From Lenzites betulinus (taxonomy: Eukaryota > Basidiomycota > Agaricomycetes > Polyporales > Polyporaceae): 64,000 bases of DNA. A program made the position numbers and the translations under genes. This document shows positions 16,900-61,094 of the stretch, in pieces. The stretch spans positions 124,001 to 188,000 of the forward strand of contig JABYQU010000019.1 of NCBI GenBank assembly GCA_022264855.1, given 5' to 3'. Below the pieces are notes generated by a model, which saw only the letters and a list, made by a program, of their open reading frames with translations, ran no database searches and was not told the DNA's origin. Numbering within the stretch: the stretch's first letter is position 1; every line of letters begins with the position of its first letter.

Positions 16900-18685
16900 A
16901 TGGTCGACAGTAGCTGGGCACACCAACAACGCCGCGACGGTGGATGGGCCGCGTTTGACAGTGAAAAACCTCGTTCTGCGAACTGGCTGGCCAGCTTGAT
17001 CGGTACCAAGGAGGCGTTGCCCTCCCACATCGACCAGAAGCCCTCGGCAGACGATGTCGCCCACCGTTTGAAAGGCATCAAGAGGTCTTTTCTCCGCCGA
17101 ATACCCTCCACGGAGTCGATATGGCCGTCACAGAGGGGCCTACGGCTCACTGGTCAAGGCAGGTCGTCGGTTGCCATCCCATCTGCCACAACTATGCGCT
17201 TCGTTCTCCTCTGCGCACTCTGGTACACAACCTCCGCCCTCTCCTCAAATACCGGAAAGTCGATTATGACCCTGTTCCGCTATCCGGTCACCCTCACCTT
17301 CATCCAGTTCGGCTTCGTCGCTGCATACTGTCTCCTCTTCATGAGCCCGCTCGTACGCTTCTCAAGGCTACGCTACCCTAACAAGGCTATCATCAAGAGC
17401 ACGTTCCCCATGGGCGTATTCCAGGTCGGAGGTCATATCTTCTCTAGTATGGCTATCTCGCGGATACCAGTGAGCACCGTCCACACCATCAAGGTCAGTT
17501 ATCCCTATCGAATTGTATACACTATCTCACGTGCTTGTTCAGGCGCTTTCGCCCCTGTTCACCGTCGCTGCATACGCGCTCATGTTTGGCGTCAGCTACT
17601 CCCCGAAGACATATATGTCGCTCCTCCCCCTCACACTTGGAGTCATGTTGGCGTGCAGCTTCGACATGTCGGCGTCCAACGCAATCGGACTTCTGTGCGC
17701 GTTCGGCTCCGCGATTGTGTTCGTCTCCCAGAATATCTTCTTCAAGAAGATCGTCCCGTCCGGCCCGGGTGCGCAGTCATCGCACAAGCTGGACAAGCTG
17801 AACCTGCTCTTCTACTCCTCGGGTATGGCCTTCCTGCTCATGATCCCGATCTGGGTCTACTACGACCTTCCTGCCCTCCTTGCTGCCCGCGCGGACCCGA
17901 CCCACGTCGCGCATCCCACCCATGGTCATGCCACGCCCCACTCTGTGATGTACTACTTCATCGCGAACGGGACCGTGCACTTTGCGCAGAACATTATTGC
18001 GTTCGTGATCCTCGCCTCCACCTCGCCCGTTACATACTCGATCGCGTCCCTCATCAAGCGCGTCGCGGTCATATGTATCGCGATCGTCTGGTTCGCGCAG
18101 CCGGTGCACCCAATCCAGGCCGTCGGTATCACCATGACCTTCGTCGGCCTCTACGTATATAACAACGCGAAGAGCGATGTGGAGAAGGGCGAGCACAAGA
18201 TGCGCAGGGTCGAGGCCGCGCGCGACTTCGCGCTCCCGACGACCAAGGCGGAACTGGAGAGCGATAGCGAGACAACGCTGGAGACGCAGCGGGCAAACGC
18301 CATCACCCCCGAGCCGCTCGGCGCCATGCCCGAGTACACGATGAGCTCCGCCTACGGCCGCCACGCACACGCGAACGCGAACGCACACGTCCACATCCCC
18401 CTGCCGTCGATCGTCACCGCGCCGCCGCCGCCGCCCTCGTACTCGCGCACGCACCCCGCCGCAAACCTGCACATCACGATCACCCCGCCGAGCGCGACGA
18501 AGGCGACGCACATCGCGTCGCCCATCGACTCGTACCCCTCGCCACCGCCCTCGCTCGATTCGCCGCCCTCGAGCGCCGCTGGCGTCCCGTGGAAGCTGCA
18601 GCGAAGACCGTCGATGGCGGCGGGCCACCCGCCACCACATCAACGGCCTGAAGCCGGTGCGCGGAGGGCGTCCGTCGTGGCGTAG
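16900..18685 (+). CDS. SLY41-like triose-phosphate/nucleotide-sugar transporter family protein
   Basis: Drug/metabolite transporter superfamily, TPT branch; yeast Sly41 sits in ER/Golgi membranes and suppresses loss of the Ypt1 GTPase. Exons 16900-17493 and 17543-18685 (49-nt intron, phase 0) give 578 aa. About ten hydrophobic segments are visible, including FVLLCALWYTTSALSSNTGK, VTLTFIQFGFVAAYCLLFM, SLLPLTLGVMLACSF and AVGITMTFVGLYVYNNAKS. The family signature STVHTIKALSPLFTVAAYALMF spans the intron. After residue 420 a long Pro/His/Ser-rich cytosolic tail (HAHANANAHVHIP) with no homology I can see extends the protein beyond the usual length. The substrate is not predictable from sequence. 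Confidence 0.88.
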
Positions 18686-22032: not shown

Positions 22033-22707
22033 TCAGTCTTCTTTGACCTCCTGCCTCAGAATCTGCCGCTTATGCTCCACCGCCTCTGGAACGACCTCCT
22101 GGTGTAGAAGCTGACGGCGACGCTCTTCAGCTACCTCCTGGTGTAGAAGCTGACGGCGACGCTCTTCAGCTACCTCCTGGTATAGGATCTGGCGACGACG
22201 GTCCGCTATTTCCGGCACGACCTCCTGGTGTAGAAGCTGACGGCGACGCTCCGCTGCTTCCGGCACGACGACCTCCTGGTGTAGAAGCTGACGACGACGT
22301 TCTTCCGTCTCCGGCACTACCTCCTGGTATAGGAGCTGACGACGACGTTCTTCAGCCTCCGGCACTACCTCCTGGTATAGGATCTGGCGGCGACGCTCCG
22401 CTGACTCTGGCACTACCTCCTGGTATAGGATCTGGCGGCGACGCTCCGCTGACTCTGGCACTACCTCCTGGTGAAGGAGTTGGCGACGAGTCGGATGCTC
22501 AACAATCTCCTGGCCCAGAATTTGGCGGGCGTGAATGCTGGCAGCGTCGCGATCCTGAAGAGCGGAGTCGCCCTGCGCGATGACGACGTGAGAAAAGCCG
22601 ACGCATAGGGTGCATTTGAAACGTACCTCAGAAGCGAGGGGGACTGGCGAGCCAACGACGAGCGCGACGAACGTCAAAACGACGAGAGCGGGGCTGAAAG
22701 TAAGCAT
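22033..22707 (-). CDS. Secreted tandem-repeat precursor with RRR (Kex2-type) separators
   Basis: Exons 22627-22707 and 22033-22572 (54-nt intron GTACGT...GCGCAG, phase 0), 206 aa. Residues 1-19 (MLTFSPALVVLTFVALVVG) are a clear signal peptide. From about residue 45 the protein is almost only repeats: eleven units of the form Q-[IL]-L-x-Q-E-[IV], most continuing VVPExxE and separated by RRR, once by HKR. Typical units are QILYQEVVPESAE and QLLHQEVVPEIAD; two are short (QLLHQEVAEE type). RR and KR are cleavage sites of the Golgi protease Kex2, so the protein should yield about ten similar 10-14-residue peptides with N-terminal Gln able to form pyroglutamate. This is the layout of fungal Kex2-processed repeat proteins (pheromones, repellents, ustiloxin-type RiPP precursors). 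No UstY or methyltransferase gene is nearby. The product and role are unknown. Confidence 0.85.
   Translation of the reverse strand: MLTFSPALVVLTFVALVVGSPVPLASEVRFKCTLCVGFSHVVIAQGDSALQDRDAASIHARQILGQEIVEHPTRRQLLHQEVVPESAERRRQILYQEVVPESAERRRQILYQEVVPEAEERRRQLLYQEVVPETEERRRQLLHQEVVVPEAAERRRQLLHQEVVPEIADRRRQILYQEVAEERRRQLLHQEVAEERRRQLLHQEVVPEAVEHKRQILRQEVKED
22075..22500. repeat. Coding tandem repeats, about 39-51 bp units
   Basis: The DNA of the precursor gene carries about ten imperfect direct repeats (48 bp typical, 39 and 51 bp variants) with shared CCTCCTGGTGTAGAAGCTGA or CCTCCTGGTATAGGATCTGG cores. The unit number is likely to vary between strains. Confidence 0.9.
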
Positions 22708-22800: not shown

Positions 22801-22807
22801 TTATATA
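22801..22807 (-). promoter_or_regulatory. TATA box of repeat-precursor gene
   Basis: TATATAA on the minus strand, 94 bp upstream of ATG 22707, a typical fungal distance. Confidence 0.5.
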
Positions 22808-24900
22808 TACTGCTTCTACCTGAGGCCAGGTGGCTATTCTGACCGACAACGAAGGGATAACACAGATATCCAGTACGTTGTTTTTTGCACAGCCGCGGCC
22901 TGTAAAGGACTGCATCGAGATCCTATCGGCACCCCCAAGCCTGGTTTCACATCCGGGCCCCCCTCTTCGTGTACGTGCGCCGTAGGATAAAGGTGTAAAT
23001 CAGCTAACGCGCACCCTCCATCACTCCCAGCGCTCTTCTGAGTCCGTGCCAGGATCGCCGTCAAGCGGTACGAAGGAACGCACGTCACATCGTGGAAACT
23101 CGCTGTGATGACTGTTCGACTCTGGGCCAGATCCGTGAGAGCGGTCTGTCAGTGTACTGAGCCCATTCGCGGCTCGCCCTCGGTTCGGGTTTCGGACATT
23201 TGGTGGGTGTTGACACTGAATATGATTATCTACCCATTTTGATTCCGCTTACGCTCCCAGCCCACCCTTTCATCATCCAAACGCCAAGTTCAGCCTTTGA
23301 CATGCGAGTACGTCAGACACCCGGGAGGCTACTGTCTCAGCGTTCAACATTGGATATTGGACACTTATCGCTGTTAGACTGATGGCCATACATACACTGC
23401 GAGTCACCGGCGCAAGCGTCCAGGGTATATTTCACTACACGATCTGCATTGAAGGCACAAGGGGTAAATCTGGAACCTGAAGAGGAGTATCAATGTGGCT
23501 ACGATGCGCCATAACGATCTCTACCAACTTACAAGGACCTATTAGTGCCCGCCCGCCCGTCGATCGTGCTGCGCTTTCGCGACGCAAATCGGTGCCGCAT
23601 CTCCCTCGGCCACGCGGCGCGTTGATGCGACCATGCCTAATTAGCACTGCCTCAAAGTACAAGGACTTGAGATGGCCAAGGATGGCCAATGATTGCTCCA
23701 CCAGTGTTTTCCGGACTGTTTATCTTGCAAGGGTTCGCATCATAATGGTCTGGGTGCGGTTTTAGATGATGTACGCACATAATGTCATTCTGTACAGGTA
23801 CGCCGACGCGTGGGATGCAATTTGCGGATGTGTCTCCCGATAATGACTTGCTCCGACTGAGCATGGATGTTCAAGCATCCGTACACTTCGAATATCCGTA
23901 CACATCCCCAAAGGCTCGGAGGATATGTCCGCAGCATAGATCAGGACGACGACAAATCGAGAAGAGAACATAAAAATATACCTACAGACGATGCCCGGAG
24001 CTCATCCGAGTCGGGAATGCCAAGGCCGAACGTGCGCCTTACGGCCGACTGCGGCGGTCATGACGAAGCGGTACCTGGTTGACTGAAGAGTGAGACAGTC
24101 GATGGGCTGCTGCATGGCCATGCCACATGGCAGCCGCAGATCAGATTCCTACCCGCCCACTGTTAATCGTACCCGGCGCACTCCCGGCCCCCACTGTTCG
24201 TGTCATACTGTCAAGTAGGTATTGTTGCATCGCTCTCACCTCCACAGCATTGATCAGATGCGCCCCTACCGTGCGCCCAGCACTTCGAGGTCTCAATGAA
24301 GAGAGAGGCATTCGAGCTGATATCCGGTGCACGCTATGGCACTGAGAGCTAATAGTAGAACGTCGGAAAGCAGCGGAAAGCACGGCGAGAGTACGACATT
24401 CGTTCTGCCATGCCCTGCCCTGCTCCACGCGGCACTGCACTGCCCTGCTTTGCCCCACAACCGGCACCGCCTCCGATTCCGGGATGCCCATGATATTCAC
24501 TGCGTTAAGCACAAGATTGCACGACGTGATTTCACCGCGGGGACGTGAGGTTGCCTGAATAGCCACGCGGATATGCCAAGTAGTTGTTGAATAGCCCCGG
24601 GGGAACGGCAGGTTTCCTAAGGTGTGTAATTCATGAATAGTATGCGCATAGCCGCCAGTGTGATCCCAAATCCCCACGGGCTTATTCCGCATCCACCACT
24701 TGTCGAGTTGAGCGCCCACGAGCTCATGTACACGCACATCCACTGTAGTGTTATCCTGCATCCCCCCGCGTGCAACGTAGTACACAAACATAGGGAACCA
24801 CGAGGTGCTTGCCCTTGCGCTGTTCAAGAGGAATTTAAATTGGTGGCAGGTCCGCTTCCTTCAAAGAGCTCTCCCTCTCCCGACCCACCACGTCCTCACT
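22808..24900. other. Gene-poor 2.1 kb
   Basis: No gene I can support. The longest frame, 24141-24827 on the minus strand, has no ATG at its start and reads like noise. Around 24405-24460 there is a simple CCCTG/CACTG-rich patch. Confidence 0.45.
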
Positions 24901-30674: not shown

Positions 30675-32125
30675 TCACGTACGGTAGGATCCATCCGTCA
30701 ATTGCCGTCTGAACTGTCCCGACGCGCTATAGGAAGAGGGAAAGACAGCCGGCGGCATTGATGAATATTGCGTATACTCGATGGGAGATTGAGATCGAGG
30801 CAACGTTCTTGCGTCGTCACTGTCATCGTCGCTTGCCCTTCGAGGCGGTCGGCGGAACGTCGTCTTGTCACGAGAGTCAGCCCCCGACTTCCGCCGTCGT
30901 TTGCGCTCGGTTTCGCGGATGTTGACGCGGACATTGTGTAGCGAGAGCAGCTGTAAACCAAAGAAACCAATTAGCAATCTGGGATGCGTGATAGACAGTT
31001 GTTTTGGAGAGCTGTCACCGATTGACTGGGCGAAGACGACACAACTTACCCGCGTCAAGGGAGTGGAGGGAGCAAGCCCGGGGAACTCTTTAGTAGAGTA
31101 GATTTTGAACGGCCCACCGTAGCACTCGGCAAATATGGTAAACGGTGTTGGAGAGGTTATGTGTGAGGACACATGCAAAGCACGGTAGCGCAGGATGAAT
31201 GTGCCTTCAGCTTTGACTGCCAAGTCCTGGAGAAAGACGTTAAAGGTGTGCAACGAATATAATGACCAATACTTACCGAGTAAACGAACATCGCCGCTTG
31301 TTTGCTGTTATAGTCGACAAGCTCTGCCTGCGTGAATGTTACACCAGCGAGGAGATAGGTGCATTTAGAACCCTCGTAGATAGGATAGGAGCCCAGCCAG
31401 GCAACAATAGGGGAAACGTCGCCGGCGGAAGTCGACGCTAGTCCGCCTTCCTCCCTAGGCCTCCCGTATTGGTGCAGAAGCTGATGGCCGGGTTCTGTAG
31501 GGCGCCCCAGGAGGAATGGAAGCGTCATGGATGGCACGACCTCAGGAATATGCGCTTGAGGCGGCAGGTACGATCCAGAGAGGGCGGGGTTCACCCTCGG
31601 CGCAAGGGAGGGAGGTGGGGGGACAGTCGCTATCGGAGTTCCAGAGTGTTGTGCGGTGTACTTTTGATAGCACTCCTCGGGGACAGGAAAGAGGTCGACA
31701 TGACAAACAGCGCCCACTATCTGAGCGTTGGTGGTCGCGGTCAATGCGGGTAAAGACGTGAAGGCGGGCAAGCGGTACTGACCAGCGACTCGATGCTGAC
31801 GTCGGGTTCGGAAGGACTGCTTGGGTAGGAGGAGTTAGGGGCGCTGCGGAAGTGGCAATGCACAACGGGTGGGGGGTCGAGGGGGCGCTTGTCCTTGCGG
31901 GCATATCTTGAAAGTCAAGCGGGGGTGAGCAGATAAACATAGTGCCCGGAACGGGCGCTGCGTCGACGAAGGGGAGGGAGTTGCGGGAGCAGCAGCAGAT
32001 GCGTACTTGCGACCGACATCAGCCTTCTGGATCTCTTCCAAATGGACCAGCACGGCTGGGCGGTCGGAGGGCCCGGAGAAGCTGCGGGGAGGTCGAGGCT
32101 CTGGGAGAGTCGGCGCTCTGTACAT
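30675..32125 (-). CDS. Velvet-domain transcription regulator
   Basis: Velvet proteins are NF-kappaB-like fungal DNA-binding regulators of development and secondary metabolism. Exons 32007-32125, 31783-31906, 31277-31720, 31050-31226, 30675-30950 give 379 aa. N-terminal half of the domain: VLVHLEEIQKADVGRKYARK, then DKRPLDPPPVVHCHF. The domain is split by a Pro-rich insert, as in VosA/VelB. It resumes at CTYLLAGVTFTQAELVDYNS, QDLAVKAEGTFILRYRALHV, PFKIYSTKEFPGLAPSTPLT and LSLHNVRVNIRETERKRRRK, ending in a basic nuclear-localisation-like tract and a Ser-rich tail. The last codons run straight onto GTACGT, so a further 3' exon is possible. Subclass (VosA, VelB or VelC) cannot be settled by eye. 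TATA box at 32205-32213 on the minus strand. Confidence 0.9.
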
Positions 32126-45395: not shown

Positions 45396-48244
45396 ATGTC
45401 TAGGAGACATGCGGGCGCACATACCCTTCCGGAGAATCCTGAATGGATCGAGTTTCCCCGCTCAGACGGGAACTATGCCCTCTTGCCCAAGAATACGGAA
45501 CAGGTGGTAGACGGAGATGGACACGTCAACTACATGCGGCCCGTGGGTCTAGAAGAAAGTCAGGCTATACTCTGGCGTGTCGCTGTGGGCTCTCAGCTAG
45601 CTGTCCGTATGGGTCTCCCAGGTAAGCCCATTGCGCACAACCGTTGATAGTGAGCTAATCTATGCATGAGTAAGCGGGACGAAATTACGTCCTAAAGACA
45701 TGGCCCGAGGGCTACCAGCTTTACGATCACAACAAGGGACCTCTGAAGGCTCCCCGGCACGATCCGTACTTGTGCGGTATGTCTTGTATACGTACACGTA
45801 CCTTGCGGTCAAACTCACTGGGCATAGGATCTGTCAGTGTCAACCGTTTTCGCTCTACAAACGAGTTCATCCCACATGCGCTATGGCTCATGCAAGACGC
45901 GACCATGAATCGTGGGAACTGCTCCTGCAAGTACTGTACGAAGCAGCCTCAACGCATCATCTCGGACACTATGGGTCTCAGTACCCACCCTGCTAGACGC
46001 TCTTCGTCTGTCGCTGGCGCCGTCCCCTCGAGCCGAAGGCCATCGCGCCCGCGCCGCGAGCTGAGGGAGCCTCGCGCCGTGGGCCGTGTCCCGCCAAAAC
46101 CATACGCGGCGGTGCGTCGTGCTCCAAAGCCCCCCAAAGTCATCCTCGGCCCAGAACAATACATCCTTCCGGAACGTGACCTTGATACGCGCGCTGCGCT
46201 CATTTCCGGAGAGGGCCAGCGCCCACGATGGTTCAGGAAGGGGGAGTTGCTCTGGTGCCATCTTGAACCGCCGATACGGGGCCTCACGCCCGATGAAGAC
46301 ATACAGTTCTGGCCTGCCCTTGTCGAGGACTTCCACGTCAAGACCCAACCTGTATTCGAGTCTCCGGACGGTATGCAAGCATACGGCGAGATAGACGTTG
46401 GGCACCTTTACAAGGAAGCGGCAGATGACAACCCGGCTCTGGGGGACGTATCTAACGGTACCCCTGCAGGCTCATCCCGGGCTACGGATCCCCCGCTCGA
46501 AGCCGAAGGGTCAGTGCCGTGGAAGGTACAGCAGTGGTACGTCTACAAGATGAAGCTCCTTGGCACCGCGCAGTACTGTCTCGTCACCGACCAGCAAGTA
46601 CTACCCTATCTTGCGTATGCCCCCTCCGACCTTCTTCTCGACCGCGTCCGCGACGAGCTCGCACAGTTCATGAACACGGTCCCCATAGACGCTATGGACC
46701 GCGACATCGAGCTCATCTCGATGTTTGACCCTATGGAGCCCGAACCACAGGGCGAGGACATTCACGCCTACTACGCAAAGTACCAGCGTGCTGCTGCGCC
46801 ATACACTCTGGCCATTCAGATCGCCGCGAACGTTGCCCAGTACTGGCTCCCTACCGACGAATGGGAGTGCAAGTTCATCATCCCTCCAGACTCTCCCTCA
46901 ATATCGTCCGCACATCCTCCTTCCGCCTCGCAGGCGCCTCCTCCTCCCTCCTCAGCCTCTCGGCCATCAACACCCTCACAACCGGCGACCCTTCACTCAC
47001 TCATCACTCAGTCACTCTCGCAAAATGCTATCTCACCTGCACTGAACGGCACCACTTCCAGCCACCCCGAGAGTATTAGTACGCAAGCGCGTCTGCCACG
47101 TGCGTCTGCCCCGGCCCCGCAGACGGTCATCCAGATGCGCTTCCAGGGTCTCTGGTGGGGCACGGAGCGCATCTGGACCGACGAGCTTGTCCGGCTCAAG
47201 ATCGCTCGGTGCCAGTTCGCACCGAAGGGCACAGACGTGATATTTCCCCCTGCTGGCCCATCGATGTCGACGTTGGAGAACATGAAAGATAATCCTGAGG
47301 CGTTGAATGCGGACCCGCAGCGTCTTGGCGCGAGCGAAAAGGGCCTCTTCCTCAGGCTCGAGGGGCTGTTTGTGGTGGACGTCATGAACGCGGAAGGAAC
47401 CGGTATGACGAGGGAGTGTAGGGCGAGCGGCATGGTGTACGAGCTAGCAGACGACGACTGGGAGGATGCGACGAACGCATCACCGCCCGCGGAGACGAAT
47501 GGTTCGGGCAAGGGTAAGGAGAAAGCTACGGAGGTGCCAGATTGTAGGTCGACATTGTCGATTTATCCCAACTTCTCTCTAACCCTTTACTCATGTGCAG
47601 CGAGCGACATGGCTACACAAAGTGATCGCGGCGCGCCAACGTTCATGTCACAACCTTCACCCCTCAAGCCTCCTCCTTTGCCAAACCCAGATCCCACAGT
47701 GCCTCTCGCGGATACTGCCAACGCGATGCTCACTCAGACGTCCCCGGAGGCCGCCGCGAGGGGAAACGAGAAGACCCCCAGCCTTGAAGACCAGCTTTCG
47801 CGTCCAGTGCTCACATCGCCATACCCGCTGCCCCCTGCCACGAAAGGATTCCGGTTCCGTCCGATCTTGCCACCTGGCCACGAAGCGATCGTCTCGCTTT
47901 CGCTCATCAGCGGACGATACTACCCGGGCCTGTTCCACCATCCGCTCATGGCGCCGACGGTCGCGCACGCCTTGTCGCTGACGTCCGAGGAAGTCGGACT
48001 ATACGATCATCGACATCTATGGGCCATGGAGGGCCTCCTTCCTGGGATTTATCAGTCTATGGATCCGAGACAGTGGCGCAAGTCTCGGACAGTAATGCTG
48101 CAGGAGGCGGCCAGCGAGGCGCGGGATCGCTTCAGTGAACGGTGGGAGGAGACCAAGATGGCGCGACTGCATCCGCCTGAGTCCCAGCCGGAGGGTGGTG
48201 ACGTCTCTATGGATGGCCCCGAGGCCTCGATGGAAGTCGACTAG
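45396..48244 (+). CDS. Clr2-like transcriptional silencing factor
   Basis: In fission yeast Clr2 is part of SHREC (Clr1-Clr2-Clr3-Mit1), which removes histone acetylation and silences heterochromatin. Exons 45396-45621, 45675-45776, 45828-47543, 47601-48244 (introns 51-57 nt) give 895 aa. N-terminal Clr2 module: WIEFPRSDGNYALLPKNTEQ, YVLKTWPEGYQLYDHNKGPL, APRHDPYLCG, RFRSTNEFIPHALWLMQDAT and MNRGNCSCKYCTKQPQR. A BAH-like region follows: FRKGELLWCHLEPPIRGLTP, IQFWPALVEDFHVKTQ, then IQMRFQGLWWGTERIWTDEL and KGLFLRLEGLFVVDVM. The last intron is 57 nt, a multiple of 3, so the frame reads through it. Nuclear protein, expected on chromatin. Low-complexity Pro/Ser linkers separate the domains. Confidence 0.9.
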
Positions 48245-57766: not shown

Positions 57767-58695
57767 GGGTAGGGATGGGGGTGCACCGGGCACAGTGCTT
57801 GCGATATTACTAGTACAAGTACTGAGTAACTTACAAAGTACCGTAAAGTGCACGGTGTGGGCGTACTGTGAGGAGGACCCCGGAGTGCGCATCTCAAGGT
57901 CAAGGGTTCGGGGTCCTGTCTGGACAGGCACGTGAGCGCGACTCGGACCTGCACCAGTCGCGACGTCTCCGAAATGTTGTAGTTGCAGCTACTCTCTTCC
58001 GCCCTCCACTGCACAGCTGCATGTCTGACAGCCAGTGCTGAATGAATACGGCGATTTTTATCAAGTAGCATGTTCACCAACTGAAAAACTAGGTCAGCAT
58101 GCCGTTGAATAACAGCCCTTCATCTCCAGACAAATGGTCCGACTCGACTCGGCAAGGCTGAAACACAAGGCAACCAAGCTTCAACCTGAGTTAGCAAGAT
58201 TTATTTCAGCTTTCCTTCCTGCGAAAACTTCCTGCCTTACTGTGCGCCGTACAGGTCAATGCACTAGGAGACAGTAACTGTAATAGATCCCGGAACGGCG
58301 TCTCTCCGTGTCATGGGACCCTTCTTTGTGTTCACGGCGACAGCTCTACTAGGGTCCGTCTCTCTCAGCTTTGCTAGCCAGTCTACCGATCCCGGGTCTC
58401 GCTCTCCCAGATCTGCCTCTGGACCTAAAAATTTGACCAAGCCTCCCCTTGCGCAACGTCGTTACACTGCAGCCTGAGAGGGCGTCGGTCGAGGAGAAAA
58501 CCATATCGCTATTCACCACACTGAAACAACGCTGTGCACGGCAGCGTTCAATCGCGCTCTCTGCGTCTTGCATCCGCCCTTTCCCCTCATCGCCCGTTCC
58601 ATCGTATTCAGTAAACCTTTTTGCGCACCTTAGGGGCTCGTGGGTACGTGCGCCGAGTCGAGTAGTCGGGATTACCAGCTCACCGCTCTCTGTCA
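57767..58695. other. Intergenic 0.9 kb
   Basis: RED promoter on the left, HET-like gene leader on the right. No gene seen. Confidence 0.5.
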
Positions 58696-61094
58696 ATGCC
58701 GACGCTCGACAGGTCGATGCCTCGCTTCCTGAACACTTGGACGGGCGAATTTGTGTGGGAGAACGAGCCAAGCAAGGCCCGGTACGCCATCCTCTCCCAC
58801 ACTTGGAAACATCCAAAAGATGGCGGCGAGCAAACGTATGCCGATATCCTGCGGCTCTAAGCAGACGCTCTCTACTCTTAGGCGGATACCTCGACTTCCG
58901 ATTCGCCTTTGCCGAAATCAGAGGATGCTTCCACGACAGCATCCCATTATCATCAGGCTCTGGCAACGCTCGTGTACCCTCTCCTTTCTTCTCTCACCCC
59001 AACCTCTCGAAGAAGATTGCAATGGCCTGTAAAGTCGCGAGGGAGGCCGGATATGAGATCCTTTGGATCGACGCATGCTGCATCGACAAATCGAGCAGCG
59101 CAGAGCTAGCGGAGGCAATCAATTCCATGTACGAGTGGTATAGGCTCTCGGACATGTGCTATGCTCTCCTCGTAGACGTCCCCGATAGCAAGGACCCTAC
59201 TAGTGACATGAGTCGCTTTACGTTCTGGCGTTCTCGATGGCACCGACGGGGATGGACGCTGCAGGAACTCATCGCACCGAAACGAGTTGTCTTTCTGACG
59301 AAGACATGGCGCTTCCTAGGCACGAAAATGGCCCTTGCGAAGGAACTTCAGATGTGCACTGGGGTTGACTGTGATATTCTCACTGGGCACGCTGCCGTCG
59401 ACTCGGTCAGCGTCTCGCGGAGAATGTCGTGGGCGGCGAGTCGGGAAACAACCCGCGTCGAAGATCAGGCGTATAGTCTGCTGGGCATCTTTGGTGTGCA
59501 TATGGCGCCAATCTACGGCGAGGGCGTAAACGCTTTCTTCCGCTTGCAGGAGGAGATCCTGAGGAAAGTCCCTGACCAGACTATCTTTGCCTGGAGTTAT
59601 CGCAAATCGTGGCCCGCTCTCCTAGCCCCATCGCCCGAGATATTTGGAAACTCTCGTTACCTTCGTACGATATCACCCGCCGACTTCGCATCCCGCCTTG
59701 GAATCAATATCGAGGACGTTCCCCCGCTGCACGCCGTCGTCACGCCACAGGGTGTTCACATGAAGCTTCTGTGTCTGGACCTTCACAGGTTTCCGGACGC
59801 CGTCGATGCCATCGCCGATCTATGGGAGCCTTTTCCCCCGACCTACACTTGCATTGACTGTATGCGGTTACCTCGTGCGCACCTACTCGCCTTCCTCCGC
59901 TGCCAAAACGGCAACGATGACCTCCTCGCACTGCCACTCTGTCATCCGCGGCCAGGTGTCGAAACGGGCCTGTATGTCGCTCCTCAGGTGTACTGCCCCC
60001 ACATTCACCTGCAGATTAATCTACAACGCGTTGTCAATGTAACACAGGAGAATGTCGACCAGCTTCTGGAGCGTTGGTCGGTTTCGGCGGTCGACGTGTC
60101 TATCCTCCACCATCAGTGGCCTCTTGACTCGTATACACCGCCAAGACACAGAATCAAACGGCCGGGGCATCTACTATTTTGGCCAGAGGACACTTACGTC
60201 ACCAGCGCTGTGGACTTCGAGCTCAGTCCTGACTCTGCTAAAGATCTAAAGCAGCTTGGCTTCTATATGTCTCCCTTGCAGTGTTCGCAGTCGCATCGGG
60301 CGATTGATTTGTCGTTTATGCTCTATTCTCAATCCATATATCGCCCATGGACGACTGACCTTCCGCGGCAGAAGGTCGCGATCAATATTGCGCTCATGCA
60401 AGCTGACCCCCGCCTGGCCATCCTGGACGCGCACTTCTCTGCGACAAACTTCACATTTGGCTCGCCAGGAGAGGCCACTGCGGACACTCCGGATTCGGGT
60501 TTCGACATCCCTCCATCATTCCTGCTAGACACAGTGTCGGGTGCGCGGATCCCTGAGGGCAAATTCATGACCGCGTGTAATCTGTGTCTCGAACCTCTGC
60601 ATGGCTTGGCCTGCGCTGACTTCACCGTCTACGCTGGGTCTGCTGCGTCGACAGAAGCAAAGGATGGGGCGACGTGCATACGGCGGCTCAAGGTTTACTT
60701 GGAGCACCCCGCGGAACCTCGAAAGGGTCTCCGCATCGCCGTTGAGCTTTCAGACGTCAACCTCATATACACAAAAAAGCCCGACGATCCCATTCGTACT
60801 GCAACACCACTGCGGTCCAAGATAGGCCCATCCAGTCGTTCAGAGATAACGAACGGCGAGCCCACCGTTCAGCAACTCTCGGTAAGCATCTGCCTAGCCA
60901 GACCGTATCGTGACTCGTGCAGCTGTGTCGAGTATGGAAGTTCACACCTACACACTCTACAGGACACGGTGGAGATGCTCCGCAATGAAAACAGTGAGCT
61001 CAAGCAGCAGCTGTCGTCTCAGAATACCCAGTTGGCCGCCGTGCTTGAGCGACTTGCGAATCTTGAAAGATTGGCCCATGCTAGTACGTCCTAA
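58696..61094 (+). pseudogene. HET-domain protein, interrupted by two in-frame stops
   Basis: HET domains trigger heterokaryon-incompatibility cell death in fungi. Exon 1 starts MPTLDRSMPRFLNTWTGEFV and holds KARYAILSHTWKHP and GGEQTYADILRL, then TAA (58858-58860) and TAG (58879-58881) seven codons on. The same frame continues ADTSTSDSPLPKSED to an intron (about 58970-59012), then IAMACKVAREAGYEILWIDA, CCIDKSSSAELAEAINSMYE, SRWHRRGWTLQELIAPKRVV, RRMSWAASRETTRVEDQAYS and LLGIFGVHMAPIYGEG, all classic HET motifs. An 81-nt intron (60882-60962) precedes a coiled-coil end (EMLRNENSELKQQLSSQNTQ). A GTATGC...CTTAG intron would remove the stops but shifts frame. A pseudogene is the simplest reading; unusual splicing is the alternative. 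Confidence 0.75.

Follow-up and report, generated by a model that had tools for sequence, protein, structure and literature searches.

A putative Kex2-processed repeat precursor of acidic, glutamine-first peptides in the polypore Lenzites betulinus

Kex2-processed repeat proteins (KEPs) have been found in large numbers, the accessible text of one survey giving 7878 in 1345 of 1461 fungal strains, 2560 of them without homologues, and an average of 5.30 per basidiomycete strain (PMC7329392). According to the available part of a study on Coprinopsis cinerea, little is known of what mushroom KEP peptides do. In that fungus, KEP cores with N-terminal Gln were recovered as linear pyroglutamate (pyroGlu) peptides, six KEP deletions were without apparent phenotype in pure culture, synthetic peptides had no antibacterial activity, and the authors favoured a role in biotic interaction (PMC9769878). 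KEP 497993 from that fungus (pyro-QVPVDEPA and pyro-QIPAELPTKSINGNIEPY) resembles the Lenzites betulinus gene reported here in its agaricomycete origin, its Kex2 sites and its Gln-first cores. However, linear pyroGlu products were found for KEP 497993 whereas those of L. betulinus are predicted, the core sequences differ, and the accessible portion of the source gives KEP 497993 at least 13 homologues elsewhere, compared with none found for the L. betulinus gene (PMC9769878). Ascomycete alpha-pheromone precursors combine a signal peptide, putative in the L. betulinus gene, with repeated short cores between dibasic sites as found in that gene, but the Ste13 XA/XP dipeptide that follows their basic site is absent from the L. 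betulinus KEP, in which QI or QL comes after 10 of 10 runs. Dikaritin precursors (ustiloxin, phomopsin, asperipin-2a) share the KEP layout and have Tyr in some cores; by contrast, the UstYa (DUF3328) gene typical of their surroundings was not found beside the L. betulinus precursor, nor was any tailoring domain nearby. Rep1 of Ustilago maydis is likewise a basidiomycete Kex2-cut repeat protein, although its peptides, as described in the available text, are 37 residues long and control hyphal wall properties (PMC6339444), compared with 10-14 acidic residues in L. betulinus. Finally, Umemura KEP type #7 (G-1/P-2) is given in the accessible part of the survey as 64 KEPs from 49 genera including Trametes, Ganoderma and Polyporus; the L. 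betulinus gene is likened to it by description (polypore, no UstYa gene nearby, high Tyr) rather than by profile (PMC7329392).

The precursor lies within a stretch of 64,000 nucleotides that was analysed as a whole (the window). A preliminary description had placed its frame at 22033..22707; the frame is real and these coordinates hold, the coding strand, left unstated there, being the minus strand, on which all features of the gene given below are located. The open frame has 224 codons plus a stop. Its N-terminus, starting MLTFSPALVVLTFVALVVGS, is strongly hydrophobic, and the best 12-residue hydropathy value (3.18) is the highest of the 109 ATG-initiated frames in the window that are 100 codons or longer; hydropathy thus points to a putative signal peptide at residues 1-20 (22648..22707). 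From a donor GTACGT at CDS nucleotide 82, in-frame acceptors are reached at distances of 54, 72 and 117 nt. The branch-site pattern CT[AG]A[CT] was absent from all three candidate introns in a scripted scan, and a CTCAC noticed by eye in the 54-nt candidate, which ends in GCGCAG, is a possible branch site. Judged by splice consensus, the 54-nt version (GTACGT...GCGCAG, 22573..22626) is preferred among the three, and its in-frame removal would leave a protein of 206 amino acids. The neighbouring triose-phosphate transporter (TPT) gene offered no usable guide to intron style. A TATATA sequence 102 nt upstream of the ATG (22804..22809) matches the consensus of a TATA box. A second copy of the precursor was not found in the genome (one protein match, one DNA match), and all nine genome-wide pattern matches for the repeat fell inside the gene itself.

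The repeat array consists of eleven Q[IL]LxQE units, whose first residues are numbers 62, 76, 92, 108, 124, 140, 157, 173, 186, 199 and 215. Units 1-6 read, in order, QILGQEIVEHPT, QLLHQEVVPESAE, QILYQEVVPESAE, QILYQEVVPEAEE, QLLYQEVVPETEE and QLLHQEVVVPEAAE, and units 7-11 read QLLHQEVVPEIAD, QILYQEVAEE, QLLHQEVAEE, QLLHQEVVPEAVEH and QILRQEVKED. Unit 1 (QILGQEIVEHPT-RR, 22483..22524) is degenerate and preceded by a single Arg (HAR), units 2-10 (22066..22482) form nine cores of 10-14 residues between RR, RRR or KR sites, and unit 11 (22036..22065) is C-terminal. The number of eleven units in the preliminary description was borne out, while the separators, given there as RRR or KR, turned out to be one RR (after unit 1), eight RRR (after units 2-9) and one KR (within HKR, after unit 10), and unit 1 to follow a lone Arg. 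Each of the ten junctions is therefore RR, RRR or KR, where KEPs are recognised by KR, RR or KK, and nine of the eleven units (2-10) have a di- or tribasic site at either end. The threshold for a KEP is at least three similar repeats in the accessible text of PMC6339444, compared with eleven units here.

Gln stands directly after all ten di- or tribasic runs, as counted from the runs and not from the Q-initial unit pattern, and the residues just ahead of the runs are variable. Position 4 of the unit is His in five units, Tyr in four, and Gly and Arg in one each. Within units 2-10, all three units with Ile at position 2 have Tyr at position 4, and five of the six with Leu have His. The two peptide classes proposed earlier, with Tyr and with His, are accordingly present at the level of sequence. 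The cores of units 2-10 have a net charge of -3 or -4, proline occurs in seven of these nine, and their variable C-terminal tails include SAE, AEE, TEE, IAD and AVEH.

The motif [KR]RQ[IL]L occurs 10 times in the precursor, whereas, when the residues beyond position 27 were shuffled 20,000 times, it appeared either not at all (19,836 shuffles) or once (164). The main repeat array has a Tandem Repeats Finder score of 361. The repeats are under purifying selection at the protein level, silent change clearly outrunning amino-acid change. With a codon alignment of units 2-10, in which the extra Val codon of unit 6 was omitted and units 8 and 9 were gapped, pN/pS between units was 0.23 when every column was counted. 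Core codons 1-10 gave 0.13, which fell to 0.07 once position 4 was dropped, and the tail and the three basic codons gave 0.32 each. Unit 10, with its HKR, accounts for every amino-acid replacement in the basic codons; the eight RRR sites differ at third codon positions only. Third codon positions make up 12 of the 20 variable columns (hypergeometric p 0.0013) and seven of nine in the core (p 0.0017), p values that are rough because the repeats are related and the columns not fully independent.

We consider it probable that the locus is a KEP gene from which L. betulinus releases linear acidic peptides of 10-14 residues, probably pyroGlu-capped, for extracellular signalling or interaction. The precursor would enter the secretory pathway via the putative signal peptide, a Golgi kexin would cleave after the RR, RRR or KR runs, a Kex1-type carboxypeptidase would trim the trailing Arg or Lys, and the new N-terminal Gln would become pyroglutamate, either by glutaminyl cyclase or spontaneously. 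In this manner some nine peptides, linear, acidic and conforming to pyroGlu-[IL]-L-[YH]-Q-E-V-V-P-E-x-x-E, would be secreted, their near-invariant N-terminal half possibly being the active part and their variable C-terminal tail tolerant. Predicted monoisotopic masses are 1486.719 for pyroGlu-ILYQEVVPESAE, 1460.715 for pyroGlu-LLHQEVVPESAE and 1203.566 for pyroGlu-ILYQEVAEE. We infer secretion, Kex2 cleavage, carboxypeptidase trimming and pyroglutamate formation from the layout and from other mushrooms; the proposal in the preliminary description of a Kex2-cut secreted precursor with Gln capable of forming pyroGlu is supported by the anatomy, by the purifying selection and by the candidate kexin and glutaminyl cyclase genes of the genome. 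A lineage-specific extracellular signal or interaction peptide would be the most likely role, in line with the biotic interactions favoured for the C. cinerea KEPs, although our certainty on the role is low.

The search for processing machinery recovered a kexin catalytic fragment as a single genome match, whose best PDB match is a kexin (E 1.1e-68) that we take to be yeast Kex2. Positions 1-56 of the 86 of the P domain follow the catalytic fragment in the same gene, so that the Kex2 expected in the genome of a KEP producer is represented by a catalytic fragment and a partial P domain. Because three Kex2 genes are reported for C. cinerea in the accessible text of PMC9769878, kexin paralogues of L. 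betulinus may have been missed by the search. A fragment of a QPCT-type glutaminyl cyclase, also a single genome match, matched glutaminyl-peptide cyclotransferases at E 5.2e-34, with PDB comparison among the M28 loci covering one locus (L008). Dipeptidyl peptidase IV had one genome match with two in-frame stops, which are probably introns. S10 serine carboxypeptidases gave 45 exon matches, and the three loci compared were all nearer to carboxypeptidase Y than to Kex1. The KEP gene (146033-146707), the glutaminyl cyclase (238073-238744) and the kexin (310673-311916) are located on one contig, C20, which makes up 1.6% of the assembly. With distances of about 91 kb (cyclase) and about 164 kb (kexin) from the KEP gene they are not a cluster, and their sharing of a contig, seen post hoc among six families searched, may be chance.

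Instead of being cut, the array could persist within a secreted rod or wall protein, helical and patterned in charge, where the RRR runs are structural; we regard this as rather unlikely. AlphaFold2, given the single unspliced sequence and no alignment, modelled one helix at residues 149-223, in the C-terminal third, where pLDDT averaged over 10 residues is 79-98 from residue 151 onwards, and acidic residues alternating with RRR suit salt-bridged helices. However, the model is poor overall (mean pLDDT 63.3, pTM 0.30), and single-sequence structure models favour helices for charged repeats. The proline in seven of the nine cores of units 2-10 also argues against an uncut rod, as does the arrangement of Gln after every one of the ten basic runs with variable residues before them, an asymmetry expected of a cleavage site.

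Unlikely, too, is a Lenzites-specific signalling family of recent origin, in which one precursor would supply two selected pyroGlu classes (I-Y and L-H) to a receptor in the fungus itself or in competing fungi. That the peptides form a surface coat or an amphipathic repellent in the manner of Rep1 would agree with the precursor design shared with Rep1 and with the hydrophobic runs (ILY, VV) in the core, but the 37 residues of Rep1 peptides given in the accessible text of PMC6339444, set against 10-14 residues with a net charge of -3 or -4 in units 2-10, make this very unlikely.

Genome-wide, UstYa gave 10 exon matches, distributed over contigs C23 (3), C31 (5) and C61 (2), and at the sensitivity of the search none was found on the KEP gene's own 591-kb contig. 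The earlier statement that no UstY gene lies in the window can thus be extended, at that sensitivity, to the whole contig, and a cyclic RiPP is less likely because of it. A six-frame Pfam scan of 7501-37300 (about 14.5 kb on each side, E up to 0.01), which exons too short to score may escape, found no oxidase, methyltransferase, P450 or UstYa domain. The families it did find were core histone, CRAL/TRIO, TPT transporter (with related weaker families), Velvet factor, eIF4E and Kei1. The Velvet-factor domain fragment is at 31050-31235 of the window (minus strand), about 8 kb from the KEP gene; Velvet proteins are regulators of fungal development and secondary metabolism. No repeat precursor was found near the ten UstYa matches: a scan of 30 loci plus the window for frames with at least three dibasic sites and a shared 4-mer, which misses intron-split or few-repeat genes, returned the KEP gene only, in the window and in one locus (L001).

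UstYa-type enzymes encoded elsewhere could nevertheless cross-link or cyclise the cores through Tyr, making the product a dikaritin-like RiPP formed in trans, and both the 10 UstYa exon matches on three other contigs and the Tyr in four of the eleven units would allow for this. We hold it to be highly improbable, as the KEP contig has no UstYa match, no tailoring domain was found within about 14.5 kb on either side, and His replaces Tyr in five of the eleven units. In the accessible part of the survey, moreover, a UstYa-type gene is nearby in 103 of 1680 basidiomycete KEPs (6.1%) (PMC7329392).

A search of a protein set with the KEP precursor returned nothing at E up to 0.01, the 7992 candidates sharing most words being scored, and the spliced form (residues 20-118) returned nothing at E up to 10 among 2159 candidates; candidates need exact 5-residue words in common, and distant relatives can escape. 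The same protein set covers L. betulinus and several Trametes. The TPT fragment of the window (17474-18682) has 99% identity over 95% of its length to an L. betulinus protein in the set, with Trametes gibbosa second (89%), while the searches turned up no KEP protein there, even for L. betulinus. With another L. betulinus protein present in the set and this one not found, the KEP gene looks unannotated. Looking for the same repeat layout in related polypores, as had been suggested earlier, was done on predicted proteins and found none there. Prokaryote contigs gave 116 pattern matches and viral contigs nine, with 0 confirmed in either; a phage search with the KEP precursor gave nothing, and a PDB search gave two Nup133 chains only (E 0.38), taken as chance. 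A literature search on KEX2-processed peptides in Trametes and Polyporales, outside supplementary tables, found no study of the gene.

That the frame is open by chance within a non-coding tandem repeat, or that the plus strand is the true coding strand, hardly seems credible: the plus strand is likewise open for 178 codons (22047-22580) and no annotation was found for the KEP frame, but the plus-strand frame is without Met, the coordinates put each third codon position of the minus frame at a second position of the plus frame, where the silent changes would all land, pN/pS is well under 1, and the hydrophobic N-terminus ranks first of 109.

The KEP gene is an orphan of an already known class, KEPs, of which thousands are published and many have no homologues. 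Its apparent lack of a current annotation hints that counts of orphan KEP genes are too low. With a single genome match, a strong repeat and exact predicted masses, the L. betulinus KEP represents a clean testable case, helped by the kexin and the glutaminyl cyclase, each of which had one genome match. Elsewhere in the window, on the plus strand, a long open stretch at 45674-48241 has a match to the Clr2 transcription-silencing domain, and an 885-codon open stretch at 58437-61091 has a HET (heterokaryon incompatibility) domain match.
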